DNA from: Chromatiaceae bacterium
GTDB lineage: Bacteria > Pseudomonadota > Gammaproteobacteria > Chromatiales > Chromatiaceae
DNA length: 36,790 bases
Assembly: GCA_024639005.1 (NCBI GenBank)
Contig: JAHEJD010000014.1
Location: 12,931 to 49,720 of the forward strand
Reading direction: 5' to 3'
The notes under the pieces were generated by a model. That model saw only the letters and a program-made list of their open reading frames with translations. It ran no database searches and had not been told where the DNA came from. The position numbers and the translations under genes were made by a program. Positions 19,310 to 36,790 of this stretch are shown one piece after another (position 1 is the stretch's first letter; each line of letters begins with the position of its first letter).

Positions 19310-21115
19310 TTACCCGGCGGCCTCCGCCTCCGGGACCTCCTTCGGTTCCACGGTCTTTGCCATGCGTTTTGCAAAATAGTAGACGCGCTGAAGCTTTTCC
19401 GCGATATCCATCTCGATCGTGTAGGCCGCGATCCGGTTGGGTTCGTCCGCGACCAGGCGCTGCGCCTGGTGGACCGCGGTCGAATTGGCGATGCGTCCAA
19501 TCTCGTCCTTCATGTGCGTCACCGATGCCGCCGCCGCCGCATCGTTCCCTGCCACCGCGCGGACGGCGGTTTCCACTGCGCCGACGACCACGCCATGGAA
19601 GCCCTTCAGCACCTCCTGGGTGGGCTGACTTATCGCGACGTCCTGATCGATGCGACTGAGCCCCAGATCGACCAGATTGGTCTCCACGATGTCGCCGATG
19701 TTCTCCAGGTTGTTGACCGCCTCCATCAGGCGCATGAACTCGAGGTTCTGCTCCTCTGTCAGCTCCAATCGGCTGATCTTGCCCAGGTAGCTGAGGATCT
19801 GCGCCTGCAAGACATCCACGCGCTCGTCCATCGTGCGGATGGCCGACAATGAGATGCGATCGCCGCCGATAATGGCGGGCATGATCTTTACCAGCATCTC
19901 GTTGACCTGCTGGCCCATGTGCTCAACCTCCATGCGCACCCGGTCCAGGGCAAGCGAGGGGGTCGCCAGCAGTTCGTCATCGAGGTACTTGGCGCGAATG
20001 ATCATGCCTTCCTCTTCCAGTGGCCTGTCGGGTACCAGCCACTCCACGAAGCGCGCGATCTGTGGCGTGAACCAGATGAAGATCAGCGTGTTCGAGATGT
20101 TGAATATCGTGTGGGCGTTGGCGATCTGGCGCGGTGTCTCGGCCCCCAGTCGCGCGACGCCGGCCAGTTCCGGGTGGGATGGTGAAAACGAGGTGACGAA
20201 TGCCGCCAACTGATGGATTAGACCGATCCATATAAGCACGCCGGCGACGTTGAAGAGGACATGTACGACGGCCGCGCGAAAGGCCTCGCGCGTCTTGCCG
20301 ATTGTCGCCAACAACGCCGTGACGCAGGTGCCGATATTGGCGCCGAAGGCCAGGGCGATGCCGGCCGGCAGGGTGATAAAGCCCTGGCTTGCCATGACGA
20401 TGACGATCCCGGTGGTAGCAGATGACGATTGGATCAGTGCGGTGAACGCCGCGGCGGTCAGGATGCCAATCAGAGGATTCTCCATCGTGACCATCAAGTC
20501 GAGGAACGGCTGATAGGTGCGCAGCGGCTTCATTGCATCGCTCATGATGCTCATGCCGAAGAAAATCAGGCCCAATCCCATCAGCATATTGCCGTATTGG
20601 CGGATCTTGTCGTTCTTCGAAGTAAACGACATGCCGAAACCGACCGCCACCATCAGCAGCGCTGCCTTGGTCACTTTGAAGGCGACGATCTGTGCGGTGA
20701 CGGTGGTGCCGATATTGGCGCCCATGATCACGCCGATCGACTGCGACATCGACATCAGTCCGGCGGTGATAAAGCCCACGACGAGTACCGTGGTCACGGA
20801 TGAGGATTGGACAACGGCGGTGACGAATGCGCCGGTAATCGCGCCCATGTAGCGGTTGGTGGTCAGTTTTGCGAGAATTGCCTTCATGCGCTCGCCGGCG
20901 ACCGCCTTCAGCGCGTCTGACATCTGGTCCATGCCAAACAGGAACAATGCGAGACCGCCCAACAGCTGCATCAGCATGGTTCCTGTTTCGATCGTCTGGC
21001 CGCCGCCATCGGCCGCGAATGCGGGCATCGACCAATAGAACATGGCCCCGGCGGCTGCACCGACCGATAGCAGCGTGAAATTTGCAGGTATATCGCGGGC
21101 TGATAGTCTCGGCAC
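19310..21115 (-). CDS. Na+/Pi cotransporter family protein (NptA-like) with PhoU-like tail
   Basis: From GTG 21115 the protein has about 601 residues. The start was chosen because AGAGAGGACG precedes it; the longer frame would overlap the upstream gene. Two inverted Na/Pi-cotransporter repeats carry the signatures QSSSVTT and QSSSATT, each followed by GANIGT(T/C)VTA, typical of SLC34/NptA proteins. The C-terminal 200 residues are helical and PhoU-like (AVNNLENIGDIVETNL, IGRIANS). It should import phosphate with Na+ across the inner membrane, with the PhoU-like part monitoring flux. A signal-like segment lies at the N-terminus. It follows a USP gene (34 bases apart), so the two are probably one operon. 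Confidence 0.94.
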   Translation of the reverse strand: MPRLSARDIPANFTLLSVGAAAGAMFYWSMPAFAADGGGQTIETGTMLMQLLGGLALFLFGMDQMSDALKAVAGERMKAILAKLTTNRYMGAITGAFVTAVVQSSSVTTVLVVGFITAGLMSMSQSIGVIMGANIGTTVTAQIVAFKVTKAALLMVAVGFGMSFTSKNDKIRQYGNMLMGLGLIFFGMSIMSDAMKPLRTYQPFLDLMVTMENPLIGILTAAAFTALIQSSSATTGIVIVMASQGFITLPAGIALAFGANIGTCVTALLATIGKTREAFRAAVVHVLFNVAGVLIWIGLIHQLAAFVTSFSPSHPELAGVARLGAETPRQIANAHTIFNISNTLIFIWFTPQIARFVEWLVPDRPLEEEGMIIRAKYLDDELLATPSLALDRVRMEVEHMGQQVNEMLVKIMPAIIGGDRISLSAIRTMDERVDVLQAQILSYLGKISRLELTEEQNLEFMRLMEAVNNLENIGDIVETNLVDLGLSRIDQDVAISQPTQEVLKGFHGVVVGAVETAVRAVAGNDAAAAASVTHMKDEIGRIANSTAVHQAQRLVADEPNRIAAYTIEMDIAEKLQRVYYFAKRMAKTVEPKEVPEAEAAG

Positions 21116-21149
21116 GGTCTCGTCCTCTCTGCTCTCTTGCGTTTGGCTT

Positions 21150-21761
21150 CTACTGCTTGACGATAGTGACTGGCACCGGGCAAAGATGTACGACCTGCTC
21201 GGCCTTCGATCCAAGAAACAGGTGTTTGAGCCCGGTGCGGCCCTGACTGCCCATGACGACCATGCTCGGCTTGACCTTTTCCACTACCTCCAGGATTCGC
21301 GTCACCGGCAGTCCGATCACCATCAGGTTCTCGGCTTTACGGAGGGCCTTTCGGTGTGGGTGTGCTTTTATCAGGGTCGTAAGAAAGTCATCGAATACCT
21401 CTGCGGCGATATCCTCCAGACGGTCGATGCGTTTCTTTTTTACCAGCGAGGCGTAGTAGCCGGGCATCTCGCCGGGGTCATGCACCACGTGCAGCACGAT
21501 CAGGTTGGCGGACATGGACTCGGCGAGCTCTGAGGCGAATAGCAGCGCGGCCTTCGAGTGGGCGGAGAAGTCCACCGGTACCAGAATCACGCGGCCATGC
21601 CCTTTCTTGCGGGCGGCCTTGGCCACCTTGGCGAGCTCTGACTTGTTGTCAGCCACACGGACCGTTTGAGTCTGCGCCGGCTTCACCGACGGGTCGGCGG
21701 TCGCGCCGGTATCTGCGTTGACCTCAGCTGACGTTTCGGAAAGATCCTTAGGATCGGACAT
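21150..21761 (-). CDS. Universal stress protein upstream of Na+/Pi transporter
   Basis: The 203-residue protein has an Asp/Ala/Thr-rich N-terminal extension of about 50 residues, then a USP domain (VILVPVDFSAHSKAAL, IVLHVVHDPGEMPGYY). The complete ATP signature is present: VVMGSQGRTGLKHLFLGSKAE fits G-x2-G-x9-G-(S/T), followed by PVTIV. The start ATG 21761 has GGAG in the overlapping end of a short upstream frame. It is co-oriented with, and 34 bases from, the Na+/Pi cotransporter gene, so it may adjust that transporter to the ATP level (inference). Confidence 0.93.
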   Translation of the reverse strand: MSDPKDLSETSAEVNADTGATADPSVKPAQTQTVRVADNKSELAKVAKAARKKGHGRVILVPVDFSAHSKAALLFASELAESMSANLIVLHVVHDPGEMPGYYASLVKKKRIDRLEDIAAEVFDDFLTTLIKAHPHRKALRKAENLMVIGLPVTRILEVVEKVKPSMVVMGSQGRTGLKHLFLGSKAEQVVHLCPVPVTIVKQ

Positions 21762-22639: not shown

Positions 22640-22670
22640 CTAGCCCTGCATGTTGCAACATGCAGGCTAG
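22640..22670 (-). other. Strong intercistronic hairpin between transporter and CBS gene
   Basis: The 31-base segment is almost a perfect palindrome: TGCATGTTGCAACATGCA (18 bases, fully self-complementary) flanked by CTAG-containing arms with one bulged C. It overlaps the transporter stop codon. No T-run follows on the minus strand, so it is not a typical terminator. A role in mRNA processing, differential expression of the two genes, or protein binding is possible. Confidence 0.6.
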
Positions 22671-24016: not shown

Positions 24017-24582
24017 GAGGGGTCTTTCGGGTCTTTCGAGTCTTTCGGGTCGCTCTCCGCACCCTGAGATCTTCCACAGGGATCGGGATGCGCGCCGTCC
24101 TCGCCGACCATCGACTTGTCAATCAGCAGTCGCTCGAGTACATCCCAGGAAGAGATCATGCCGACGAGCTTTCTGCGCTTACCCTTGACCACGATCACGG
24201 GCAGGCTCGTATCGTCGCTCTGGTCGAGTAATTCGAATACCTCGGGAAAGCTGGTGGACGGTTTACAGAATTTCAGGTTTTTCTTTTTTTCCAGATACTC
24301 CGACACCGGTTTTTGGCCGACCTCCCTCAGTCGCTTGTAGAGTGTCCCCACTTCATCCGGCATGAAGCTGAGGTCTTTAAGGCCAAACTTTATCTTACCG
24401 GCATTCGGCAATAACAATCGGATCAGCGGGCGTATCCCGAATAGGCCAATAAACTCGTCATGCTCGTCGACCACCGGTAGATTGCGGATCTGCTTCTCGT
24501 GCATGATCTGCAGGGCATCGCATACCTTGTCGGTTGGTTTCAGCTTAACCAGCCGGAAACTCATGATATTCTCGACGGTCAT
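24013..24582 (-). CDS. CBS-pair protein coupled to ArsB/NhaD-type transporter
   Basis: The start at ATG 24582 was chosen because AGGAAAGAG precedes it; a much longer upstream frame overlaps another gene and looks non-coding. The 189-residue protein has a CBS pair: first motif MTVENIMSFRLVKLKPTDKV then LPVVDEHDEFIGLFGIRPLI; second about residues 95-165, ending VIVVKGKRRKLVGMISSWDVLERLL. A hydrophilic tail with repeated DPKD/SKD/PKD units ends the protein, encoded by a 9-bp tandem repeat. The stop overlaps the transporter start, which strongly suggests a regulator-transporter pair. Confidence 0.88.
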   Translation of the reverse strand: MTVENIMSFRLVKLKPTDKVCDALQIMHEKQIRNLPVVDEHDEFIGLFGIRPLIRLLLPNAGKIKFGLKDLSFMPDEVGTLYKRLREVGQKPVSEYLEKKKNLKFCKPSTSFPEVFELLDQSDDTSLPVIVVKGKRRKLVGMISSWDVLERLLIDKSMVGEDGAHPDPCGRSQGAESDPKDSKDPKDPS

Positions 24583-25087
24583 CTGGCTCTTTCCTCGTCT
24601 ATGCGGATACATCGGATCCCATGTCTGACGATTTTCGCGCAGACGCAGGGCTACAGGCGACACAGTACTGACCCGATTGCCGGTAGCGGTTTGCGCAGCA
24701 GCCTGGGCCTTGCCCATCGCTCGCCGATGGCAGGTCTCGACACGAAACTCGGGCGCGACCCGCCTATACTGGTACCGGAGATGCACCCCGGGGTGGGCAT
24801 CACGGCAGCGACGCAGAGCAGTAGTATCTGGGCAGTAACCCGAAAGTGTACAAGATTCTCTATGACCCGAAGGTGCGTTGTATCGATCCGGCGTGGCGCC
24901 GCAACGCGGAGGCTCACGGGACTCTCTGCCTCGCACCCCTCTCAGATCTCCGCGCGCTGTTGGAGGCCATCCGGGAGTTCGGCTCGTTAACTTTACGGCC
25001 GGCGTGGCGGAGAAAAGCGCCACATCGGATCGACGATTGCGCAGTGCGGCGCGCATGAATTCTGGAAAAACGGCACAGGACGATGAG
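24583..25087. other. Divergent intergenic region of about 0.5 kb
   Basis: The segment separates a minus-strand operon from a plus-strand one and must carry both promoters. No protein can be supported: frames at 24499-24990 and 24651-24917 have no motif and conflict with each other. A perfect six-base stem GTGGCG/CGCCAC occurs at 25004-25023. In-frame starts at 24878 and 25055 would lengthen the next gene, but its best ribosome site is at 25088. Confidence 0.4.
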
Positions 25088-25429
25088 ATGAACGATGCCG
25101 GCGAGCAACAGGCCCTCTGCCCCCACTGCGGGCAACCACACGACGCAGCCGCGCAAGCCTGCCCTGCCTGCGGGGTGGCCCGCGAGCCGGCGGCAATGCT
25201 TCCGGGTGCGGAGTCAGAGTGGGCCCATGCCAGGGACGGTCTCAAGACGAAATGGGTGGCCTCAGTGATTGCGTTTTGGGTTAGCGTGGTCATCCTGGGA
25301 GTTGTCTTCTTCATAGAACAGCGGCTCAATCTTATGCTTACCTCCATCGCCCTCGGCATGCTGGTCATCGGAATCTGGCTGAAGACCCGATATCAAATGC
25401 ATCTCCGCAACGATCCGAGCAAACATTGA
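25088..25429 (+). CDS. Zinc-ribbon membrane protein
   Basis: Starting at ATG 25088 (AGGA before it) the protein has 113 residues. An N-terminal zinc ribbon, Cys11-x2-Cys14-x10-Cys25-x2-Cys28 (CPHCG, CPACG), is followed by two membrane helices at about residues 60-80 and 85-103. The ribbon would face the cytoplasm. Similar short zinc-ribbon/two-helix proteins are common but uncharacterised. The stop overlaps the start of the next gene (TTGA), so the two probably act together. ATG 25055 is an alternative start. Confidence 0.75.
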   Translation: MNDAGEQQALCPHCGQPHDAAAQACPACGVAREPAAMLPGAESEWAHARDGLKTKWVASVIAFWVSVVILGVVFFIEQRLNLMLTSIALGMLVIGIWLKTRYQMHLRNDPSKH

Positions 25430-25896: not shown

Positions 25897-26217
25897 TATG
25901 CGGGTCTTGATGGCCTGGCCGTGCGACGCTATCGCCTCGCTTCCGATACGAGACAAGACGGAATCGAAACAGATAACCATGTGGCCGGTAAGCAGGACCG
26001 GGATGCTTCGCCGGAGGTCAGTATTTGCGGGAAGTCAAAAAAATGCAATAAAAATGTCATAGAAGGCCCTTAGCGCCCGCGCGGCTGTTGCCCAAGGGCG
26101 TAATCAGGCGCATGTTTAACAACAATATCCAAATTACTCACTGTGAATCACGGCATCGGGCGAGGCGCTGGTCTAGGCCGCCTTCGCGCAATCTGCTGCC
26201 TCTTGGAGGACGTAAAA
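25897..26217. other. Intergenic region upstream of PhoU-like/PiT pair
   Basis: The 321-bp segment has no gene I can support. Its middle is A-rich (26030-26060) and holds a Pho-box-like sequence at 26043-26060, so it is probably the promoter region of the following phosphate genes. No -35/-10 pair stands out. An in-frame start at 26143 would extend the next gene, but the strong ribosome site favours 26218. Confidence 0.4.
26043..26060 (+). promoter_or_regulatory. Candidate Pho box upstream of PhoU-like/PiT operon
   Basis: ATGCAAT, AAAA and ATGTCAT form a 7-4-7 direct repeat in the correct orientation. The second heptamer matches CTGTCAT at six of seven positions and the first at four of seven. 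The A-rich spacer is typical. It lies about 158 bases before the DUF47 gene. PhoB control of a phosphate transporter is plausible but unproven. Confidence 0.35.
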
Positions 26218-26898
26218 ATGAAAACGACCAATCCCATAGCCGCCCTGTTCGGGCGGTCGCCGTTCAAGCCCATACAGGCGCACATGCGAGTCGTTCTCGA
26301 ATGCGTGGCCGAGGTCCCGGGGATCTTTCAGGCGGTGGTGGACGGTGATCAGGCCAAGCTGGAGGCGCAGAAAAACCTGATCTTCGAAAAAGAGCAGGCC
26401 GCCGATGAGATCAAGAACCAGCTGCGCGGGCACCTGCCCAAGAGCCTGATGATGCCGGTTGATCGGCGCGACCTGCTGGACGTGCTGGCCATGCAGGATT
26501 CGATTGCAGACACCGCCCAGGATATCGCGGGCATGTTGGTCGAGCGCCGGATGGAGGTGCCGGAAGGCATGGCGGAGCCTCTGATGGCCCTTGTCCATCG
26601 CTGCTTAGACACCTGCAACGCGGCGGGCAAGATCATTGAGGAATTGGATGAGCTGTTGGAAATGGGTTTCCGAGGCCGTGAGGCGAACCAGGTCGAGGAG
26701 ATGGTGGCTAAGCTCAACGTGATCGAGGACGAGACCGACGAGCTGGGCATGCAGCTGACGCGCAGCCTGTTTGCCCAGGAGGACAGCATGTCGGCAGTGT
26801 CGGTGATGTTCTGGTATCAGCTCATCCAGTGGATCGGTGATCTCGCGGACTATGCGGAAAAGGTCGGCGACCGGCTCAGGTTGTTGATCGCTCGCTGA
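26218..26898 (+). CDS. DUF47 (PhoU-like, TIGR00153) protein
   Basis: This 226-residue helical protein is of the DUF47/TIGR00153 type. It has the opening NPIAALFGRSPFKPIQAHM, the EKEQAADEIKNQLRGHLPKSL segment and DRRDLLDVLAMQDSIADTAQDIAGML, which carry the acidic/His-like PhoU helix motifs, plus a C-terminal GDLADYAEKVGDRLRLLIA. The family nearly always precedes a PiT transporter and is thought to control it. An excellent GGAGGA ribosome site precedes ATG 26218. The PiT gene starts 93 bases downstream on the same strand, so the pair is an operon. Confidence 0.94.
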   Translation: MKTTNPIAALFGRSPFKPIQAHMRVVLECVAEVPGIFQAVVDGDQAKLEAQKNLIFEKEQAADEIKNQLRGHLPKSLMMPVDRRDLLDVLAMQDSIADTAQDIAGMLVERRMEVPEGMAEPLMALVHRCLDTCNAAGKIIEELDELLEMGFRGREANQVEEMVAKLNVIEDETDELGMQLTRSLFAQEDSMSAVSVMFWYQLIQWIGDLADYAEKVGDRLRLLIAR

Positions 26899-26991: not shown

Positions 26992-28257
26992 ATGGAAATC
27001 ATCTCCGAATACGGCACGATCTTTACGGTCATGGCCGTCATCTTCGGTCTCTACATGACCTGGGGTATTGGCGCCAACGATGTCGCCAATGCAATGGGCA
27101 CCTCTGTGGGTTCCGGTGCAATTACCGTCAAACAGGCGATCTTGATCGCAGCGATCTTCGAATTCACCGGCGCCTTTATTGCCGGTGGCTCGGTAACCGC
27201 GACGATCCGCAAGGGGATCATCGACCCATCCGCGATAGCCGGGTCTCCCGAATACCTGGTGTATGGGATGTTGGCGGCCCTCTTGGCCGCGGCGATCTGG
27301 TTGATGGTCGCCTCCTACCGCGGTTGGCCGGTCTCCACCACCCACTCTATTGTGGGTGCGATCGTCGGTTTCGCAGTGGCCGGCATCGGTATGGATGCCG
27401 TCAATTGGGGCAAGATCGGTCAGATCGTCGCCAGCTGGCTGGTCTCGCCGATGCTCGGTGGAGTCCTCGCGCTGCTGTTGATGTTGAGCATCCGCAAGTT
27501 GATCCTGAATGCCGACAACCCCTTTGCCAAGGCCAAGAAGTATGGCCCCCTCTATGTGTTCCTGGTGGGCTTCATCGTCAGCCTGGTCACGCTGTTCAAG
27601 GGCCTGAAGCACCTCAAGCTCGAATTCTCCATGGGCGAGAGCTTCGTGATAGCCGTCATCTTCGGGCTCATCGTCGCCTTCATCGGAAGGCTGATGATCA
27701 ACCGTGTCCATGTGGATGAGACGGCCGATCGCGATTTCCACTACGCCAGCGTCGAGAAGGCCTTCGTGCCGATGATGATCTTCACCGCCTGCGCGATGGC
27801 CTTCGCCCACGGCTCCAACGACGTGGCGAACGGCATCGGGCCGCTGGCCGCGGTCATCTCGATTGTCGAGAGTGGCGGCGAGGTGGCGCAGAAGGCGTCG
27901 CTGCCGATCTGGATACTGCTGCTCGGCGGTGTCGGCATCGTGGTCGGCCTGGCCACCATGGGCTGGAAGGTGATGCAGACCATCGGCACCAAGATCACCG
28001 AACTGACCCCGACGCGTGGCTACTGCGCGACCCTGGCCGCAGCCACTACGGTCGTACTGGCCTCCAAGACGGGTCTACCGGTATCGACCACGCATATCGC
28101 GGTGGGTGCGGTCATGGGGGTCGGCCTGGCACGGGGCCTGGGTGCCCTGGATCTGCGCGTGATCGGAAATATCGTGATGTCCTGGGTGGTCACGCTGCCG
28201 GCCGGTGGCATACTGGCGGCTATCTTCTTTTTCATCTTCAAGGGCATCTTCGGCTAG
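26992..28257 (+). CDS. PiT-family inorganic phosphate transporter
   Basis: The 421-residue inner-membrane protein has the twin PiT signatures: GANDVANAMGT at about residues 27-37 and GSNDVANGIGP in the second half. The repeated STTHSIVGAIVG and STTHIAVGAVMG motifs are also present. About ten to eleven membrane segments are visible, with a short central cytoplasmic loop. PiT proteins import metal-phosphate or phosphate with H+ or Na+. It is paired with the PhoU-like gene upstream. It gives this locus a second phosphate carrier in addition to the Na+/Pi cotransporter at 19310-21115, probably of different affinity. Confidence 0.95.
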   Translation: MEIISEYGTIFTVMAVIFGLYMTWGIGANDVANAMGTSVGSGAITVKQAILIAAIFEFTGAFIAGGSVTATIRKGIIDPSAIAGSPEYLVYGMLAALLAAAIWLMVASYRGWPVSTTHSIVGAIVGFAVAGIGMDAVNWGKIGQIVASWLVSPMLGGVLALLLMLSIRKLILNADNPFAKAKKYGPLYVFLVGFIVSLVTLFKGLKHLKLEFSMGESFVIAVIFGLIVAFIGRLMINRVHVDETADRDFHYASVEKAFVPMMIFTACAMAFAHGSNDVANGIGPLAAVISIVESGGEVAQKASLPIWILLLGGVGIVVGLATMGWKVMQTIGTKITELTPTRGYCATLAAATTVVLASKTGLPVSTTHIAVGAVMGVGLARGLGALDLRVIGNIVMSWVVTLPAGGILAAIFFFIFKGIFG

Positions 28258-28354: not shown

Positions 28355-28972
28355 ATGTTCGAGTTAGCTACAACGCCATGTTCTGGGCTGCACTACATGA
28401 AAGGCCTGGCCTTTCCACTGGACGTCAAGTTCCGACAGGTGCTGGTCACCGGGCCACCCGGGGCCGGCAAGACCACGCTGATTCGACAGCTCGGCGGTTG
28501 GTCGGAAGAGGGCTATCTCGACCTCAGCCGGCCGCGTTGGTGGACCGACCAGGCCCTCGCCATCCGTCCGCGCGAGATTCATCTGGGGTTGCCTTTCATC
28601 GGCTTTACGCAAGCGCTCGCGGTTTTCGACCCGGAATGGCTGCAGGGCAAGTCTCATCCGCGGCTGGACCTGCGGCGCATCCGGGTCCCGCCGCCCAAGC
28701 GCCACCTGCTTTCGACCGATTGGCGGGGAAGGTATGTATTCGAGTTTCTGTTGCCGTCGGCCGAGGCGCTGTTCGAACAGCGCAGCCTGCGTGCGCGTCG
28801 CGGCACTCACCCGGTAGATCGCCAGCTCAGTCCGGAGCTCGTGACAGCCCAGCTGGAGGTATTTCATCAGTGTGCTCTCCACCTTGCACGCAGCGGCGTT
28901 CGCGTCTACATAAGGCGAGGGGTCTCCAGTCCCCCCGACTGTATCGTCTATACGGCGCGCGCCGATGAATAA
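28355..28972 (+). CDS. P-loop NTPase paired with FHA phosphatase
   Basis: The 205-residue protein has a clear Walker A, GPPGAGKTT at residues 33-41, followed by a short strand LGGWSEEGYLDLSRPRWW that is unlike most AAA proteins. A distant Walker B is not obvious; FVEF- or DLRR-type acidic strands are the only candidates. The C-terminal half has a beta-strand pattern (RVYIRRGVSS) but no named domain. The start is ATG 28355 or 28397. The last eight bases overlap the start of the phosphatase gene, so the two are co-translated. It may be a kinase or NTPase opposing the phosphatase, which is inference. Confidence 0.75.
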   Translation: MFELATTPCSGLHYMKGLAFPLDVKFRQVLVTGPPGAGKTTLIRQLGGWSEEGYLDLSRPRWWTDQALAIRPREIHLGLPFIGFTQALAVFDPEWLQGKSHPRLDLRRIRVPPPKRHLLSTDWRGRYVFEFLLPSAEALFEQRSLRARRGTHPVDRQLSPELVTAQLEVFHQCALHLARSGVRVYIRRGVSSPPDCIVYTARADE

Positions 28973-30419
28973 GTCGTCTGTCAATTCCAACCCAGACCTG
29001 CTGAAGCGCCTTCGCCGGGCCTTCTCGGGTCTGAGTCGTTGTCCGCAGTTGAAGCTACGCGACGCCTACCGGCTGGTAGACGGCAGTGTGCGCGTGCCCT
29101 ACGAGGGGTTCCCGATCGAGCTGCTGCTGGGCAATGACGGCAAGAGGCTGCATCTGTATCCCGAGTACCCTCTGCAGGGTGACGGGAAACCCGGCGGGTC
29201 GCCGAATTTTCTGATCGAGGAGCCGGATCATGCCGCCGGCACGGCCATCAGCGGTTTCCTGCGCCTCGAGCCTGGACAGGAGCTCACTCTCGGGACGGAA
29301 GATCGACAACAACGGGTCCTGTTCGACTACCCTGACAGCGTCGCGCCGCGTCATCTGAAAGTGGTGCACGATGACGATGCGGTAGTATTCAGGGACAGGA
29401 CGTCGATCGGCACCTGCCTTTCACCGATGCTCAACGTGGAAAAAACGGAGCGGCTTGCCTGTCTGCGGCGCGTGTTGGAGATCTTCGGTGGCCCGCTCAA
29501 GCCGCTGCGAAAGGGCGACGCCCTCGCATTGATCGAGCAGGTCAACCATGTCATGAAGAACGAGGTGTTTCGCCCCCGCGACAGTCGTGGCCTGCCCGGT
29601 GGTCTGCTGCAGCTGCCGGGCGAGCTGACGCCTATTGTGGTGGCCGACCTGCATGGGCGGGTCGAAAACCTGCTGGTGATCCTCAGTCATAATGGCTTCC
29701 TGCGCGCCCTGGAGAAGGGAGAGGCCTGTTTGGTGATCCTCGGCGATGCGGTCCATTCGGAACGCGATGGGGAGTTGGAAGAAATGGACGACTCGATGCT
29801 CATGATGGACCTGATATTTCGTCTCAAACTCCGTTTCCCGGAAAACTTCTTTTTCCTGCGGGGCAACCATGACAGTTTCTCCGAGGATATTGGCAAGGGC
29901 GGGGTACCGCAGGGGCTACTGTGGAAGCGCGCCTTGAAGAAGGCGCGCGGCCCGGATTATCGCAGGGCCATGCAACGCTACTACGACCTGCTGCCCTATG
30001 CGGTGACCTCGCCGGATTTTTGTGCCACACATGCGGCACCGCCGAGGAACAAGATCTCGGTGGATAAGTTGATCGAGATCCATCGCTATCCCGGTTTGGT
30101 CAAGGAACTGATCAATAATCGCATGTTGCGAAGTAACCGGCCCAGCGGATACACGAAGGGCGATGTCCGGCGATTCCGCAAGGCCCTCGGTGTGTCGCCC
30201 GAGACCCCGTTCATCGTCGGCCACACGCCCATGGACCGGACCGATACCTACTGGCTAAATGTGGGAGGGGCCGACAATCATCATATCCTGTACAGCGCCG
30301 GCGAGACCTGGGTCGGTACCATTACGCGGATCCATGGAGAGATGTGTCCGATGAGGTACCCTTGCGAACCCGAGCTTCGGCACTACTCACCCGATCAAGG
30401 AGAGCGGGTCGTCCCGTAA
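28965..30419 (+). CDS. FHA-domain PPP-family serine/threonine phosphatase
   Basis: This 484-residue protein has an N-terminal FHA-like domain at about residues 98-155 (GTEDRQQRVLFDYPDSVAPRHLK, then RDRTSIGTCLSP, with Arg129-His130, Ser147 and Gly149-Thr150). A PPP phosphatase domain follows: D228-x-H230-G (ADLHGR), G260-D261 (GDAVHSER), G300-N301-H302-D303, His356 and His420 supply the metal and phosphate ligands. FHA domains bind phosphothreonine, so the enzyme may recognise and dephosphorylate marked proteins. The gene overlaps the preceding P-loop gene. The next gene begins about 340 bases later. No serine/threonine kinase of the Hanks type is visible in the window. Confidence 0.9.
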   Translation: MNKSSVNSNPDLLKRLRRAFSGLSRCPQLKLRDAYRLVDGSVRVPYEGFPIELLLGNDGKRLHLYPEYPLQGDGKPGGSPNFLIEEPDHAAGTAISGFLRLEPGQELTLGTEDRQQRVLFDYPDSVAPRHLKVVHDDDAVVFRDRTSIGTCLSPMLNVEKTERLACLRRVLEIFGGPLKPLRKGDALALIEQVNHVMKNEVFRPRDSRGLPGGLLQLPGELTPIVVADLHGRVENLLVILSHNGFLRALEKGEACLVILGDAVHSERDGELEEMDDSMLMMDLIFRLKLRFPENFFFLRGNHDSFSEDIGKGGVPQGLLWKRALKKARGPDYRRAMQRYYDLLPYAVTSPDFCATHAAPPRNKISVDKLIEIHRYPGLVKELINNRMLRSNRPSGYTKGDVRRFRKALGVSPETPFIVGHTPMDRTDTYWLNVGGADNHHILYSAGETWVGTITRIHGEMCPMRYPCEPELRHYSPDQGERVVP

Positions 30420-30762
30420 GACCGCCTCGGCCGGCGCGGTAGGCCGCTGAGCGAGCTCGCGAACGGCCACTGGGACGAGTGTTTCCCGACCGTGGCGCAG
30501 CGCCCGGAGCACGTCATTCCTTTCTTTGCCTTCGCGCAGTTTGCTTTATGCCTGTGAGGTGCATGTCGTTTCTGCCCCAGACCCGCGCGCTGGTTTGCGA
30601 GACAGCATCGCTGAAATAACGCGCATTGCGCTGCGCTAATTTTTAAAGAAGAATCCAGACGGATGATACATAGAGAACTGCTTCAGGCGCTGACCAGCAG
30701 AAGAAGAAGGAGGCGGCAGATGGTGAGGAGAGTGCGAAACATTTCCGCCATCGCGCGGGGCC
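30420..30762 (+). other. Intergenic region before first 2PGK-like gene
   Basis: This 343-bp segment probably contains the promoter of the downstream signalling genes. It has an AT-rich patch near 30640 (CTAATTTTTAAAG). A 35-residue Arg-rich frame at 30663-30770 (MIHRELLQALTSRRRRRRQM...) overlaps the start of the kinase gene. I regard it as doubtful; it could also be a leader. Confidence 0.35.
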
Positions 30763-31935
30763 GTGGCTAAGAAGCTCGTTATCAAAACCAACACCGGCGA
30801 GCGTATTCCATTCCTTCGCGGTGTATTGGTCGAGTCTTTGGCGCGTTCCGGTCTCTCGTTCCATGATGCTTATCTGGTGGCGCAGTCGATTCGTGGCGGG
30901 CTTGGCGATGACGTCGAGATTAGCGCTGATGCACTAAAGGACCGGGTGGCCTCTGAGGTCCGTAAACGCTTCGGCGAGACGTTGGCGACAGCTTATGAAA
31001 GGGGCTCCGCTGTTCAGCGGCAGATCATGGTCCGCTACGCTGGGGAAGACGCGCCCTTTTCGGCAGGCCTGCTTTCTCGTTCGCTGCAGGCCTGTGCAAT
31101 CAGGCGTGATAATGCGCTGGAGACCGCAAAGCGGGTGCAAGACCACCTGCGGAAAATGGGCGAGGCCGATATAGAGCATCTTGCTCTGAGGCAGGTTGTT
31201 TACGAGCATCTTCAACAACATTGTTCGCAGTCAGCCGCGGATCGCTATCTCTGCTGGCAACTGTTCAGAGACAGTGGTCTTCCTCTGATACTGCTAATCG
31301 GCGGTATCACCGGTACCGGAAAGAGCACGCTGACAACAGAATTGGCTTATCGGTTGAACATCGTCCGTACGCAGTCGACCGACATGATGCGCGAGATCGT
31401 GCGCTCCTATCTTCCTCGAAAAAAAGTTCCCACGCTGGCGTATTCGAGTTTTGAGGCATGGCGTGGTCTGACGAAGCGCGGTGCACCGGGAAACGACCCG
31501 GATAACGACGCCTTGGTCCTCGGTTTCCTCTCCCAGTTCAGTGCAGTAAAAAAAGGACTGGAGGCGACCATTTATCGGGCCGTCAAAGAGGGCCAGGATC
31601 TGATCGTGGACGGGGTGCATGTCTTGCCCTCCCGGCTCGAGCTGGACATCGCCACGGATCAGGCAATCGTGATCCCACTGATGCTGGTTGTGCCTAAACG
31701 GAAAACACTGGCGAAACGCCTCAAAAATCGTGCGCGCGACCAGCCCGAGCGTCCGGCGTCGCGTTACATCCAGGGGCTGGATGAGATATGGGCGCTGCAG
31801 TCGTATCTGGTCAGTGAGGCGGAAGAACATGACGTAGCGCTGATCGTCAACAGCGATATCGACGAGGCCTTACACGCGCTCCTGATGCAGATCAGCGACA
31901 CCATCGCCCGGCGCTTTCCGCCTAGCTCCCGATGA
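30763..31935 (+). CDS. Double-ATP-cone 2-phosphoglycerate-kinase-like protein
   Basis: The 390-residue product (GTG start) has two ATP-cone modules, about residues 4-82 and 87-168. The first reads KLVIKTNTGERIPFLRGVLVESL; the second has the same pattern (MVRYAGEDAPFSAGLLSRSLQ). A P-loop kinase domain follows: Walker A GGITGTGKST (180-189), then RTQSTDMMREIVR, SSFEAWR and DLIVDGVHV. The kinase part resembles archaeal 2-phosphoglycerate kinase, which makes 2,3-bisphosphoglycerate, and plant LPA1-type homologues linked to phytate. Its own substrate is not known. It overlaps the histidine-kinase gene by four bases (ATGA) and has a paralogue at 34465. Confidence 0.88.
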   Translation: MAKKLVIKTNTGERIPFLRGVLVESLARSGLSFHDAYLVAQSIRGGLGDDVEISADALKDRVASEVRKRFGETLATAYERGSAVQRQIMVRYAGEDAPFSAGLLSRSLQACAIRRDNALETAKRVQDHLRKMGEADIEHLALRQVVYEHLQQHCSQSAADRYLCWQLFRDSGLPLILLIGGITGTGKSTLTTELAYRLNIVRTQSTDMMREIVRSYLPRKKVPTLAYSSFEAWRGLTKRGAPGNDPDNDALVLGFLSQFSAVKKGLEATIYRAVKEGQDLIVDGVHVLPSRLELDIATDQAIVIPLMLVVPKRKTLAKRLKNRARDQPERPASRYIQGLDEIWALQSYLVSEAEEHDVALIVNSDIDEALHALLMQISDTIARRFPPSSR

Positions 31936-33887
31936 CGTTACGAAACATGTCAGAAATCGCACGCTCAGCCTTGCAAGCGCACCCGCCCGCAGATGATGCG
32001 GGCGTTCTGAGGCCGCTGTGGTGGGCCTATGTGCCGGTTGTGCTGCTCGCCTTGCTCGGCGTGTCGATCGCGATCTTTCTGTTTGCTCAATCAGTCGACA
32101 GTGTGAAGAGCGAGGTCGAGATCAAATTTCGCGAGGCCTCGCACGACCGTATTCTGGTCGTACATCGCGAGATCTCTGCAGCGCTGGCCATAACCCAGGA
32201 TATTGCGAGTCTGTTCGGGGCATCGAAGGTGGTGAGCCGGCGTGATTTTCGAAAATTCGTCGGTCCATCGCTGCAGCGCTTCCCTGGCATAAGGGCCCTG
32301 ATGTGGGCCCCTGTGGTACCGAGCGCAGAACGCGCCGGCTTTGTCACCCGTGCTCGTGGCAGCTATCCCCCGTTCAAGATTCGCGAGTTCGAACCTGTGG
32401 GTAAGGGAGTCGAGAGCGGCGATCGCCCCTACCACTATCCCGTGCTGTATGTGCAGCCGTTTACCAGCAACAAGGCGATCCTGGGAATCGACTTAGCCTC
32501 CGATCCGATGGTTTCGAAGCTGTTGCAGGCGGCCGAACTTGCGCAGACGCCGCAGGTCTCGTCGGCGATCTCGCTGGACGGGGGTGATGCCGCGGCAAAA
32601 GATTTTGTCGTTGCGATAGCGGTGTCGACAGAGGATGAGTCGGCAGAGGAAGATCAGGGCCCACTCGTCGCCCATGTCGCCGCCGTCCGGGGCTTTGCGC
32701 TCGGCGCGTTTGGCATCAGGGACATCGTCGAGCAGGGCCTGTTGAATACCAGGCCCGGCGGCATCGACCTGCACTTTTACCGCGATGACACCGACGGTGT
32801 CGCCCAGCCGTTGTATACGCACCTTTCCCGTCTCAGAGGCGACTCGGTTAGCTACAAGGCCGAAGAAAACACTGGTCTGACCTACAGCGAGCACATCACT
32901 GTCGGCGGCGAGCGATGGCGGGTGGTTTGTAATGCTGCGCCTAGTCGATTCGATATCGACTTGTTCACCAGCTGGATCATTTTGTTTGGGGGTATTGCGT
33001 TTACGGCCTTGCTCACTGTCTATCTCGCAACTATTGTCGGCCGGACTCGCCGGGTGCGACTGGAGGTCGCAGACAGAACCGCGCAGCTACGCGAGGCAGT
33101 AGCTGCGCTGAACCGCGAGGTGGTAGAGCGCAAGTCGGCCGAGCACCAGCTACAGAGCCTCAATGAGCAGCTGGAGCAACATATCGCTCGTCGCACGGCC
33201 GAAGCGGAAAGGCGGGCCCAGTACCTGGAGCAGTTCGCCTATGTGACATCGCATGATCTCAAGGCACCCTTGCGCGCTGTCAGCAATCTGGCGCAGTGGA
33301 TCGAGGAGGACCTCAATAAAAAGCTGGACGATAACTCGCGAGAGCAGCTGTCCCTTCTGCGCGACCGGGTACGTCGCATGCACGATCTAATCGAGGGGCT
33401 GCTGGAGTATTCGCGTGTGGGTAAGACCGGCGCCAATGAAGAGATGGTCGATACGCGCGAACTGATCGAAGAGACCATCGACTCGCTGCTGCCCCCCAAA
33501 GGTTTCAAGATCCGAATTCGGGGTGAGATGCCGACGCTGCGCGCTGATCGGTTGCAGCTCGGCCAGGTTTTCGCCAACCTGCTGAGCAACAGCCTGAAGC
33601 ACCATGGCGGTGAAAAGGGCAAAATCCGGGTCGCGGTAGAGAACGCCGGCGCCCAATACCAGTTCTCCATATGCGATGATGGCGAGGGAATGGCACCGGA
33701 ATACCACGATAAGGTTTTCCTGATGTTTCAGACGCTGGGATCGAGCGACATGGGCGGCAGCACCGGAATCGGTCTGGCGCTGGTGAAAAAGATTGTGGAA
33801 GAGCATGGCGGCAAGATAAGGCTCGAGTCGGCGGTCGGCGAGGGCACCTGCGTCTTCTTCACCTGGCCGAAAGGCCCGAGTGAATAG
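31932..33887 (+). CDS. CHASE-domain sensor histidine kinase
   Basis: This 651-residue kinase has a membrane helix (about 32-52), a periplasmic CHASE domain (about 75-330, with FPGIRALMWAPVVP and GSYPPFKI motifs), a second helix (about 345-368), a coiled coil (375-430), and a HisKA region with phospho-acceptor His441 (SHDLKAPLRAVSNL). The ATPase domain has the N box ANLLSNSLKHHG, G1 CDDGEGMAP, F box VFLMFQTL and G2 STGIGLALVKKIVEEHGGKI. All catalytic motifs look intact. CHASE domains sense small extracellular molecules such as cytokinin-like or stress signals. The start overlaps the upstream 2PGK-like gene, and a CheY-like gene follows, so the three may form one pathway. Confidence 0.94.
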   Translation: MTLRNMSEIARSALQAHPPADDAGVLRPLWWAYVPVVLLALLGVSIAIFLFAQSVDSVKSEVEIKFREASHDRILVVHREISAALAITQDIASLFGASKVVSRRDFRKFVGPSLQRFPGIRALMWAPVVPSAERAGFVTRARGSYPPFKIREFEPVGKGVESGDRPYHYPVLYVQPFTSNKAILGIDLASDPMVSKLLQAAELAQTPQVSSAISLDGGDAAAKDFVVAIAVSTEDESAEEDQGPLVAHVAAVRGFALGAFGIRDIVEQGLLNTRPGGIDLHFYRDDTDGVAQPLYTHLSRLRGDSVSYKAEENTGLTYSEHITVGGERWRVVCNAAPSRFDIDLFTSWIILFGGIAFTALLTVYLATIVGRTRRVRLEVADRTAQLREAVAALNREVVERKSAEHQLQSLNEQLEQHIARRTAEAERRAQYLEQFAYVTSHDLKAPLRAVSNLAQWIEEDLNKKLDDNSREQLSLLRDRVRRMHDLIEGLLEYSRVGKTGANEEMVDTRELIEETIDSLLPPKGFKIRIRGEMPTLRADRLQLGQVFANLLSNSLKHHGGEKGKIRVAVENAGAQYQFSICDDGEGMAPEYHDKVFLMFQTLGSSDMGGSTGIGLALVKKIVEEHGGKIRLESAVGEGTCVFFTWPKGPSE

Positions 33888-33944
33888 CGAAACGCTAGAT
33901 ATGGTGGCCCAGGCCGCGGATCTAAATACCTGGAGCGTGGATTC

Positions 33945-34370
33945 ATGCTGAATGCTGATGACCCAATTCTGCTGGTGGAAGATGACAGAGTGGACATCAT
34001 GACGGTGCAGCGTGCGCTGAGAAAGAATCAGATCGGTAACCCGCTGCACATCGCCCGCACCGGTCTGGATGCACTCGACATGCTGCGTGGGCAGCATGGA
34101 CAGGAAAAGATATCGCCACCTCCCGCGCTGATCCTGCTGGACCTGAACCTGCCAAAGATGAGCGGCATCGAATTCCTGCGTGCCTTGCGTGAGGACCCCG
34201 AACTCCGAGAGATGCGCATCATCGTGCTGACGTCGTCGAACGAGCCAAAGGATCGCGCCGCTGCGTTCGAACACGATGTCGACGACTACATCGTAAAGCC
34301 TCACTCCTTCGACGAATTCTCGCGCGCGATAGCGACGGTCCTGACGCTCTGGGACTCATCGGAGACTTAG
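33945..34370 (+). CDS. Single-domain response regulator (Rcp1/CheY-like)
   Basis: The 141-residue protein is one receiver domain without output. Acidic residues Glu12-Asp13-Asp14 (LLVEDD), phospho-acceptor Asp66 (ILLDLNLP), Thr96 (VLTSS) and Lys118 (IVKPH) are all present. The long loop before the phospho-site is typical of Rcp1-like regulators that pair with phytochrome-type or CHASE/GAF kinases. GGAG precedes ATG 33945. It is 57 bases after the histidine-kinase gene, so it is the likely cognate regulator. With no output domain it must act by protein contact, possibly with one of the flanking 2PGK-like kinases (inference). Confidence 0.94.
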   Translation: MLNADDPILLVEDDRVDIMTVQRALRKNQIGNPLHIARTGLDALDMLRGQHGQEKISPPPALILLDLNLPKMSGIEFLRALREDPELREMRIIVLTSSNEPKDRAAAFEHDVDDYIVKPHSFDEFSRAIATVLTLWDSSET

Positions 34371-34464
34371 CGCTATTTGCCGTCATCCCGGGAGCTGGAC
34401 CTTGGGCTACACTCGATCAAGTTGCCGGTGATGACTCGCCGGCGGGGCATGCGCTGATATTACT

Positions 34465-35655
34465 ATGGCCAAACTGTACGTCATCGATTCCAAAGAAGGC
34501 ACCAAGATCCCGTTTCTCCGGGGCATCCTGACCCGTTCGCTGCAGGACGTCGGTGTCGATTTCGAGGAGGCCTACGAACTGGCCTCAGCGATACGCGGCA
34601 AACTGAGCGAGGACACCCAGGTCAAGACCTGGGAGCTGCGCAAACTGGTGGCGGGGCAACTCCGCGAGAGCCATGGGAAGAACATCGCAGATCGGTACGT
34701 CTCGAAGGTCAAAGGCGCCAATACGGTCGTGATTCTCGGTGACGAGGGCCAAGCGGCGGCCTTTTCCGTCGAAGTTCACAGCAAGTCGCTGGAGGTCTGC
34801 GGTATCTCCGGCGAAGAGGCACGCAATCTGAGCCGCCGGCTGGGGCAACACCTGGTAGCGCGTCAACGCAGACAGGTGAGCAAATCGTACCTGGGGAGGT
34901 TGACCTACCGGATGCTGGCCAGGGAGGCCGACCGGCGCCTGGCGCAACGCTATCTGGTGTGGCGTGATTTCAAGCGCAGCGGCATACCGCTGCTGTTGTT
35001 GATCGGTGGCACCGCGGGATCGGGCAAGAGCACCCTCGCGACCGGCCTGGCCAGTCGGCTCGATATCTTTCGTACCCAGTCCACTGACATGCTGCGCGAA
35101 ATCATGCGGATGATGATGCCGGAGCGGCTGATGCCGGTTCTGCATCGCTCTTCGTTCGAGGCCTGGCGGGCGTTGCCGGAAAGCACCGGGCCTCTAGAGC
35201 AGGAGGATCGGATCGCCGACGGCTACCGCAGCCAGACCGGGCTGCTGGCGGTGGCCTGCGAAGTCGTGGTGCAGCGGGCGGTGCGGGAGCGGGTATCGAT
35301 GGTGCTGGAGGGTGTACACATCGACGCCAGTACGGTGAAGCGGCTGCAGGGCGGTGACGAGATCATCGTGGTGCCCATCATGTTGGCGATTCTGAAGCAG
35401 GACGTGTTGCACAAGCGGATTCGCGGTCGCGGGACCACTTCGCTGCAGCGGCGCGCACAGCGTTATCTGAAGAGTTTCGATTCGATCTGGCAGCTGCAGT
35501 CCTACCTGTTGTCGGAGGCGGACAGGGAACAGATTTCAATCGTCGTCAATGACGACAGGGAAGATACCATCGCCGAGGTCCTGCGGATCATCGGCGACAC
35601 CCTGTCGGCCAGGCTGGAACCGACGCTGAAGCGGGTATTCCCCGCTGTAGGGTGA
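34465..35655 (+). CDS. Second double-ATP-cone 2-phosphoglycerate-kinase-like protein
   Basis: The 396-residue product is a clear paralogue of 30763-31935 and shares the full layout: two ATP cones (about 3-82 and 86-170), Walker A GGTAGSGKST (181-190), then FRTQSTDMLREIMR, RSSFEAWRAL and MVLEGVHID. Differences are scattered along the whole length, so it is an old duplication and not a recent tandem copy. ATP cones sense ATP/dATP versus ADP and usually switch activity. The stop overlaps an alternative apgM start (TGATG), tying this gene to phosphoglycerate metabolism. The ribosome site is weak. Confidence 0.88.
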   Translation: MAKLYVIDSKEGTKIPFLRGILTRSLQDVGVDFEEAYELASAIRGKLSEDTQVKTWELRKLVAGQLRESHGKNIADRYVSKVKGANTVVILGDEGQAAAFSVEVHSKSLEVCGISGEEARNLSRRLGQHLVARQRRQVSKSYLGRLTYRMLAREADRRLAQRYLVWRDFKRSGIPLLLLIGGTAGSGKSTLATGLASRLDIFRTQSTDMLREIMRMMMPERLMPVLHRSSFEAWRALPESTGPLEQEDRIADGYRSQTGLLAVACEVVVQRAVRERVSMVLEGVHIDASTVKRLQGGDEIIVVPIMLAILKQDVLHKRIRGRGTTSLQRRAQRYLKSFDSIWQLQSYLLSEADREQISIVVNDDREDTIAEVLRIIGDTLSARLEPTLKRVFPAVG

Positions 35656-35696
35656 TGCTCGGCGGATCAGATGAATCCACCCTCGGGGGACCGACG

Positions 35697-36790
35697 ATGC
35701 GATACAAGGGGCTGATGATCATCCTCGACGGTTTGGGGGATCGACCCTGTCCGTCGCTGAACGGGCAGACCCCGCTGGAGGCAGCGGTCACGCCGACGCT
35801 CGATCGACTGGCCCGGGACGGGATAAGCGGCATGGTCGACCCCCTGCTCGCCGGCGTCCCGGTCGGCACGCATACCGGCACCGGGGTACTGATGGGCCTG
35901 GCACCCGTAGATGCGACGCAGCTGGCGCGAGGCCCGGTGGAGGCGGCCGGGATCGGGTTGGTAATGCAGCCTGGGGAAGTGGCCCTGCGCTGCAACTTCG
36001 CGACCTTGAGAGAGGAAGGACAAGGCCTGAGGATCGACGATCGGCGTGCCGGCCGAATCCAGGATGGTACCGAAGAGCTGGCGGCGGCGCTGCGCGACAT
36101 CCCGCTGGGAGACGGCATCACAGGCGGTCTCTACCCGACGACCCAGCACCGCGCGGTCCTGGCACTGCGTGGTACCGACCTGTCGAGCCAGGTGACGGAT
36201 ACCGACCCGGGTGGCGGCCGCAAGAGCCGAGGCGTGCTCACGGCACAGGCGCGCTATGCGGGCGACGCTACCGCACGGCGCACGGCGCAGGCGGTCAATC
36301 AATTCGTCCACGCGGCCCATCGCATCCTGGCGCAGCATCCCCTGAACGGCGATCGTGAGGCGCGCGGGCTGCCGCCGGCCAACGGCATAATCACCCGCAG
36401 TGCCGGCCGTTCCGGTGCCTTGCGCAATCTGCTGGCATGGTGGGGGATTCGCGCCTCGGTGATCGCGGGCGAGCGCACCGTCGTGGGCCTGGGCCGGTTG
36501 TTCGGGTTTCGGACGGTCCACCAGGCCGGTTTCACCGCCTTGCCGACGACCGATCTGGACGGAAAGCTGGCCGCCGCGGTCGCTGAACTCGAGACCCATG
36601 ACCTCGTCTTCCTGCACATCAAGGGGCCGGACATCTGCGCCCATGACCGTGATCCCCTCGGGAAAAAGTCCTGTCTGGAACACATCGACCAGGTTCTCGC
36701 CGGCCTGCCGCAGACGGATCTGGTGATCGGCGTGACCGGCGATCACTCCACCGACAGCAACCAGGGCCGGCACTGCGGTGATCCGGTACC
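35697..36790 (+). CDS. apgM: Archaeal-type cofactor-independent phosphoglycerate mutase (partial)
   Basis: The frame stays open to the window end (about 364 residues visible; the 3' end is missing). It begins MRYKGLMIILDGLGDRPCPS, typical of ApgM, with PVGTHTGTG, GGLYPTTQHRAVL, HIKGPDICAHD and GVTGDHST as further alkaline-phosphatase-superfamily motifs (metal-binding Asp and His). It converts 3-phosphoglycerate to 2-phosphoglycerate. A GGGGGA ribosome site supports ATG 35697; ATG 35655 is in frame and overlaps the previous stop. Placement directly after a 2-phosphoglycerate-kinase-like gene makes a shared 2-phosphoglycerate pathway plausible. The antisense frame at 35667-36773 is a shadow. 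Confidence 0.93.
   Translation, partial: MRYKGLMIILDGLGDRPCPSLNGQTPLEAAVTPTLDRLARDGISGMVDPLLAGVPVGTHTGTGVLMGLAPVDATQLARGPVEAAGIGLVMQPGEVALRCNFATLREEGQGLRIDDRRAGRIQDGTEELAAALRDIPLGDGITGGLYPTTQHRAVLALRGTDLSSQVTDTDPGGGRKSRGVLTAQARYAGDATARRTAQAVNQFVHAAHRILAQHPLNGDREARGLPPANGIITRSAGRSGALRNLLAWWGIRASVIAGERTVVGLGRLFGFRTVHQAGFTALPTTDLDGKLAAAVAELETHDLVFLHIKGPDICAHDRDPLGKKSCLEHIDQVLAGLPQTDLVIGVTGDHSTDSNQGRHCGDPV

Follow-up and report, generated by a model that had tools for sequence, protein, structure and literature searches.

The final six kilobases of a 36,790-nucleotide stretch of DNA from a Chromatiaceae bacterium (GenBank assembly GCA_024639005.1, contig JAHEJD010000014.1, positions 12,931 to 49,720; the whole stretch is called the window below, and coordinates are counted from its first letter) carry on one strand, in this order, the genes of a kinase (K1), a CHASE histidine kinase (HK), a lone receiver (RR), a second kinase (K2) and a protein of the apgM type, that is, like cofactor-independent phosphoglycerate mutase. 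They seem to form two adjacent modules, K1-HK-RR and K2-apgM. Relatives of the kinases recur next to genes for phosphate import and polyphosphate metabolism, and a phosphate role of some kind is likely for them. We propose that the K proteins would represent a bacterial branch of the 2-phosphoglycerate-kinase-like family engaged in phosphate homeostasis; the version of this role in which a phosphoglycerate is the substrate is held at a little below an even chance.

K1 (30763..31935, + strand, 390 amino acids, GTG start) was identified as a two-cone P-loop kinase by profile matches and falls in the HK-linked clade of the tree described below. The HK gene (31932..33887, + strand, 651 amino acids) overlaps K1 by 4 bp, and its product has CHASE (102 bits), HisKA and HATPase_c domains, all over the Pfam cut-offs. 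It is followed by a single-domain receiver (33945..34370, + strand, 141 amino acids), for which Response_reg (73 bits) was the sole Pfam match and no output domain was found. K2 (34465..35655, + strand, 396 amino acids), also a two-cone P-loop kinase by profile matches, was modelled with a predicted local distance difference test (pLDDT) score of 88.1. The apgM-type gene (35652..36788, + strand, profile match) is open at its 3' end, where window and contig end together; its frame opens 4 bp inside K2, and from the ATG at 35697, the likelier start, it begins 41 bp after K2. Gene calls, domain matches and the K2 model bear out the arrangement described in an earlier sequence-only reading of this DNA, with two intact two-cone kinases flanking a CHASE kinase and an output-less receiver and an apgM-type gene next.

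Relatives come from a scan of which the 80 best among 140 confirmed candidate loci were retained, which favours closer relatives. Genes were called by open reading frames (ORFs) and family models, most records are metagenome bins (the phylum labels of L033 and L060 may be misbinned), and the linkage counts are lower bounds since many loci have short flanks. In a tree of the K proteins, K1 belongs to a clade of 22 rows that is separate from the others, with a support of 98 in the Shimodaira-Hasegawa-like approximate likelihood ratio test (SH-aLRT). Seventeen loci (L026-L042), all in this clade, lack K2, and HK lies within 1 kb after K1 in 15 of them, the exceptions being L039, where the contig ends 0.2 kb past K1, and L042, in which K1 is followed by a histidine phosphatase. 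Among the 63 loci outside this group, apgM was found within 1 kb of K in 37, without the two-component genes, and in all 37 it was downstream and on the same strand. Linkage of the kinases to HK and to apgM, set beforehand as a test by the sequence-only reading, was thus found to be conserved, but separately for each module: the order K1-HK-RR-K2-apgM was present in none of the 80 loci and in none of 15 contexts from relatives (L006, L130-L143), many of them cut by contig ends. The five genes thus appear to be two modules rather than one system. The same-genus genome G001 has no K1; about 5 kb separate its K2 (L131, which shares a contig with L059) from a DUF47-Pit-AAA-MPE group, with a Na/Pi symporter in between. 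By our own reading of the scans and the tree, a K2-type gene is also present in 8 of 12 genomes with a K1-type gene, a count drawn partly from 30 genomes selected for having K.

Of the three products of the K1 module, RR varies least across these loci. Identities of K1, HK and RR to the window proteins are 65, 60 and 83% in L026 and 52, 48 and 75% in L035, and in most of the loci compared (L026-L041) RR stands some 15 to 25 percentage points above K1 or HK; judged from these sequences, it reads as if RR had several partners. L043, the basal row of the K1 clade, has no CHASE kinase and is near Pst genes and a histidine phosphatase; at L043:8614-11859 a K2-type and a K1-type kinase are neighbours in divergent orientation, the phosphatase and the Pst genes coming next, and this one locus thus unites most of the themes described here. 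In the tubeworm symbionts L076, L082, L085 and L094 a very large ORF (about 1,130 amino acids) precedes K2, with a match to a receiver model 68-205 bp before it, and K2 too can therefore adjoin signalling genes.

The K family is rare. A phylum-wide draw of 398 genomes, in which at most four first-look candidates per genome were scored, gave one convincing carrier, the window's own genome, which had been included by design; the other seven matches were fragments of 17-22 bits. K1 and K2 are the sole two family matches in that genome. Among 56 relatives a family match was obtained in 18; four of these matches are weak (at most 23 bits in G019, G033 and G044, and 50 bits in G043), which leaves 14 relatives. 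In a plasmid search a single partial match came up, from Deinococcus (31.7% across residues 176-373).

To describe the gene context, neighbours were clustered and cluster representatives scanned with family models, by which about 25 families were annotated. These include PstS, PstA/PstC, two PstB families, PhoU, a Na/Pi symporter, Pit and its DUF47 partner, a PPK2-type polyphosphate:AMP phosphotransferase and Ppx/GppA. At least one phosphate-import or polyphosphate gene lies within 5 kb of K in 45 of the 63 loci outside L026-L042, and 57 have either such a gene or apgM; those with neither are L053, L056, L069, L075, L086 and L102. Over the 63 loci, phosphate and polyphosphate genes have a density of 25.7 per 100 kb in the 2.5 kb nearest to K, which drops to 8.6 at a distance of 7.5-10 kb. 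In control stretches from eight K-carrying relatives of the window's family (G001, G003, G010, G015, G020, G028, G029 and G030; 259,824 bp in total) the same models gave a single match, a PstB-like gene of 228 bits, or 0.38 per 100 kb; the controls are the first bases of 20 arbitrarily chosen contigs, not a true random sample. As the phosphate families were chosen after the neighbours had been viewed, the argument is the size of the effect and not the p value (1e-7). The partners differ among the 63 loci (Pst in 18, PhoU in 17, PPK2 in 11, Na/Pi symporter in 11, Pit/DUF47 in 10 and Ppx in 7) and by lineage: Bacteroidota and some Gammaproteobacteria have Pst together with PhoU, Planctomycetota have PhoU and a Na/Pi symporter, and others have PPK2 and DUF47-Pit. 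The connection to phosphate storage that had been drawn from plant LPA1 homologues is supported by these neighbours, which the sequence-only reading had not drawn on, and less so for the K1 clade, as detailed below.

K1 and K2 are 38% identical to each other. The Pfam ATP-cone model detected the second cone alone in each protein, the first being recovered as a separate NF003259 match of 25.6 bits in K1 and 51.6 bits in K2. In the predicted structure of K2 a similar unit, strand-strand-helix-helix-strand-helix-helix, occurs twice before the kinase domain (residues 1-82 and 88-172), and alignment with K2 places the cones of K1 at about residues 1-80 and 84-172 and its kinase domain at 173-390. 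A fold search with the K2 kinase domain (about residues 173-390) returned gluconate kinases, adenylate kinases and NRK1 at Z values of about 13 to 15.6; a sequence search of solved structures gave weak P-loop matches only. In 93 distinct homologues, K1-type and K2-type rows pooled, the motifs GGxxGxGKS and RTQSTDMxRE and residues Q257, R271, E275, G283, R322, R329, W342 and Q345 (K2 numbering) are kept in at least 90%. As these active-site residues are retained, K1 and K2 are not decayed genes; by sequence, both are probably active enzymes and perhaps share the same chemistry. Control of the kinases by the ATP level through their cones would be an extension from the domain names.

Among the closest known systems is the archaeal 2-phosphoglycerate kinase (2PGK; COG2074, NF003259/PRK04220), which shares an ATP cone followed by a P-loop kinase and is matched over nearly its whole length (model positions 3-293 of 306 in K1 and 9-296 in K2). 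The K proteins differ from it in being bacterial, in having two cones rather than one, in scores below the cut-off and in their phosphate-gene context. The best match of K1 (residues 5-377) is PRK12337, also named 2-phosphoglycerate kinase (NF008994, 492 positions), although it begins at model position 90 in K1 and 95 in K2. The mevalonate-3-phosphate 5-kinase model NF008996, with 193 positions for the kinase part only, also matches the kinase domain, but much more weakly (78.5 bits in K1 and 51.4 in K2, against 268.8 and 260.4 for NF003259).

The apgM-type partner matches archaeal apgM (TIGR00306; PDB 2zkt, 3idd and 3kd8) over its whole length up to the contig end, with 315.7 bits against a cut-off of 320 for the truncated window copy and up to 344.2 bits for K-linked copies elsewhere. 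In the K-linked copies the DRRAGR arginines, which we take to bind the substrate, are kept in 40/40, 40/40 and 39/40, and the columns taken to be metal ligands in 41/41, 39/40, 40/40, 40/40, 40/40 and 40/40. Unlike archaeal apgM, they have Thr in place of the Ser of G-S-D-T, presumably the nucleophile, in all 41 distinct copies with the column filled; Ser is found there in the three solved archaeal proteins and in the non-linked paralogues NL148, NL149 and NL152, the remaining three non-linked rows looking degenerate at this site. Thr nucleophiles occur in the same superfamily, in phosphopentomutase, so that activity is plausible, though the reaction may differ. The related PhpG family is named for phosphonoformyl transfer to 3-phosphoglycerate, and in L051 and L063 the K-linked apgM is split into two ORFs.

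A full-length apgM was found in 8 of 14 K-carrying relatives, always beside K, and in none of 15 same-genus or same-family genomes without K (Fisher p 0.0007, relatedness uncorrected). The latter set omits G005, G009, G019, G021, G025, G033 and the same-class G035-G055, G019 and G033 being marginal K matches, and apgM may have been missed in incomplete K-carrying relatives (G013, 69%). The gene gpmI is over its cut-off in 55 of 59 genomes, including the window's own, and apgM is therefore dispensable for glycolysis in most carriers. A role of apgM as sole mutase was accordingly rejected for most genomes. The four without gpmI over the cut-off (G026, G072, G078 and G081) all carry K: G072, G078 and G081 have additional apgM relatives in which this site is Ser, among them a canonical apgM of 507 bits in G081, apart from the K-linked copy of 341 bits, and in G026 no full-length mutase of the gpmI, apgM or gpmA families was found. 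From the distribution of gpmI and the Thr in all 41 copies, the K-linked apgM is probably not the housekeeping mutase. The earlier statement that apgM makes 2-phosphoglycerate thus keeps its profile match but is weakened by the gpmI of the same cell and by the altered nucleophile column.

A further possible partner is a PGM-like histidine phosphatase (Pfam His_Phos_1). It lies no more than 1 kb from K in 10 of the 80 loci, of which five belong to L026-L042 and five do not. In nine examples the RH, E and H residues, which we take to be the functional ones, are visible, and the relatives with solved structures bear the names phosphatase, phosphoglycerate mutase and alpha-ribazole phosphatase.

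We propose that K2 would use ATP to convert a phosphoglycerate, probably 2-phosphoglycerate (2-PG), into a bisphosphorylated acid, 2,3-bisphosphoglycerate or a close kin, and that the Thr-type apgM downstream, as a dedicated paralogue, would supply or rearrange its substrate. The product might be a soluble reserve of phosphate and energy, or a signal, coupled to whichever importers and polyphosphate enzymes the genome has, and the histidine phosphatase, where present, would take the phosphate off again. K1 would be an old paralogue with the same chemistry, whose activity or partners are set by an outside signal through the CHASE kinase and the lone receiver. We infer here the substrate, the product, the role of the cones, the target of the receiver and the direction of control. 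The full form of the proposal, a metabolite circuit, possibly of 2,3-bisphosphoglycerate, in which ATP-cone kinases and a dedicated histidine phosphatase report or buffer the phosphate and ATP state to Pst/PhoU, Pit and the polyphosphate enzymes, is speculative, and we consider it possible rather than likely.

Several observations weigh against the proposal. The curated cut-off of 343 bits of NF003259 was reached by neither K1 (268.8) nor K2 (260.4), and for NF008994 both proteins (274.5 and 246.4 bits) are far below the 603 required. No phosphate gene was detected within 7.5 kb of K in any of the 17 loci L026-L042, and the phosphate role is weaker for K1 for this reason, the exceptions among K1-type genes being L043, near Pst, and the window itself, with Pit 2.5 kb upstream. 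No apgM was found within 1 kb of K in 26 of the 63 other loci, some of them at contig ends, and the Thr of the linked copies may mean that they have another function. In 80 regions upstream of K a Pho box with three mismatches or fewer was found once, against about 1.4 expected, the pattern scored being what we take as the E. coli-type consensus, from which other lineages could differ. Finally, no good copy of the histidine phosphatase was found in the window's genome (best match 21.8 bits).

Among other explanations, the one that survives best keeps the phosphate role and changes the substrate, to an inositol monophosphate or some other small acid or polyol that carries a phosphate; we regard it as possible rather than likely. 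It draws on plant LPA1 (OsPGK1), a 2PGK homologue that, in the cited passages, is needed for normal seed phytate and for which an inositol monophosphate kinase activity is proposed (PMC4844318, PMC7020182), and whose overexpression in rice raises seed phytate and total phosphorus (PMC4844318). LPA1 is likened to the K proteins through its published description as a 2PGK homologue tied to phytate storage, and differs in its plant context and its proposed inositol phosphate substrate (PMC4844318). The nearest folds, gluconate and adenylate kinases, also leave the acceptor open, and the altered nucleophile column of the apgM paralogue points the same way. On the other hand, this frequent partner keeps the DRRAGR arginines and the metal ligands, and no inositol gene was seen among the annotated neighbour families, of which there are only about 25.

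Two further explanations are improbable. In the first, the kinase domain would be a sensor of ATP/ADP or would act on a protein partner (PhoU, a transporter or a receiver) instead of a metabolite. The allosteric use of ATP cones elsewhere and the position of K beside PhoU, Pst and receivers in some loci agree with this, but the full P-loop, the RTQSTDMxRE motif and many polar residues are kept as in an enzyme, the fold matches are kinases of metabolites and nucleotides, and a mutase-type gene is linked. In the second, the phosphate link would be a bystander of a few conserved, co-inherited chromosome neighbourhoods, and several loci are indeed close relatives (the tubeworm symbionts L076, L082, L085 and L094). 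However, the link remains in 31 of 42 clusters when loci are merged at 70% identity and in 24 of 32 at 60%, with differing partners, and by tree labels it recurs in Pseudomonadota, Bacteroidota, Rhodothermota, Planctomycetota and Thermodesulfobacteriota.

A shade less probable still is that K produces a bisphosphoglycerate, cyclic or linear, that serves against stress as a solute, in the manner of hyperthermophilic methanogens, the phosphate genes merely feeding it. Passages of the cited papers place archaeal 2PGK in the cyclic bisphosphoglycerate pathway (PMC12136491, PMC10690619), in which the cyclic 2,3-diphosphoglycerate (cDPG) of methanogens is formed from 2-PG via 2,3-diphosphoglycerate and is suggested to be a phosphate and energy store (PMC10690619); in Methanothermobacter it is described as a major phosphorus-containing solute (PMC4302986). 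No cyclic-2,3-diphosphoglycerate synthetase was present among the annotated neighbour families, a genome-wide search not having been made, and several carriers are by record title symbionts of tubeworms or clams, unlikely hyperthermophiles. The idea that K supplies 2,3-bisphosphoglycerate, a known cofactor of GpmA, for priming this mutase is scarcely credible and was rejected, as gpmA was over the cut-off in 1 of 44 genomes with K and in 4 of 15 relatives without it.

For the K proteins as phosphate-linked 2PGK-like kinases, methanogen cDPG and rice LPA1 are best taken as parallels, not as tests. A comparison from 2005 lists 2PGK and apgM of Thermus/Deinococcus among the COGs shared with archaea or eukaryotes and absent from the other bacteria compared, and the passage on this pair describes no linkage or phosphate context (PMC1274311). 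No literature joining 2-phosphoglycerate kinase with bacterial phosphate uptake was found in open-licence PMC.

Other phosphate-related genes are present upstream in the window. A DUF47/PhoU-like partner of Pit (26143..26898, + strand, PF01865, 184 bits) and a Pit-type phosphate transporter (26992..28257, + strand, Pfam PHO4, 412 bits), both near K in relatives, are followed by a small P-loop protein (28355..28972, + strand, from the profile scan and locus maps; predicted structure of low confidence, pLDDT 67.8) and a PPP-like metallophosphatase (28965..30419, + strand, Pfam Metallophos, 33.4 bits, with PP1 matches at about residues 223-306). The latter two adjoin DUF47-Pit in several relatives, on the same strand in L059 and L061 and with the metallophosphatase opposite in L065, L080 and L098; a relative of the metallophosphatase also occurs without Pit in one control stretch (L122). 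They may constitute a second undescribed phosphate module. A terminator-like site (30621-30636) separates the metallophosphatase gene from K1; the region has 13 such sites, where shuffled sequences gave 7.6 ± 2.6, and the same scan found nothing resembling a promoter. A Na/Pi symporter (19310..21214, - strand, TIGR00704, 245 bits, cut-off 210) is the second phosphate importer of the window, and a MamN/CitMHS-type transporter adjoins a CBS-domain protein at 22667-25368 (- strand). In L082, about 8.5 kb downstream of K2, a PhoU-domain protein (L082:19715-20821) has a C-terminal match to low-molecular-weight phosphotyrosine phosphatase (25.5 bits), and its family is also beside Pst genes in other loci.

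How bacterial cells measure their own phosphate is, to our knowledge, still an open matter. The neighbourhood described here points to an undescribed metabolite step in bacterial phosphate storage or sensing, as a rare and defined kinase family recurs with unrelated importers, polyphosphate enzymes, a modified mutase and sometimes a phosphatase, and it provides concrete proteins with which a phosphate-related metabolite can be tested in bacteria. It also suggests that an older tie of this kinase fold to the storage of phosphate may lie behind both the phytate phenotype of plant LPA1 and the bisphosphoglycerate store of archaea. If the proposed circuit is true, it would be a bacterial counterpart of eukaryotic inositol pyrophosphate signalling or of phytate storage, with an external input entering through K1 and its CHASE kinase.

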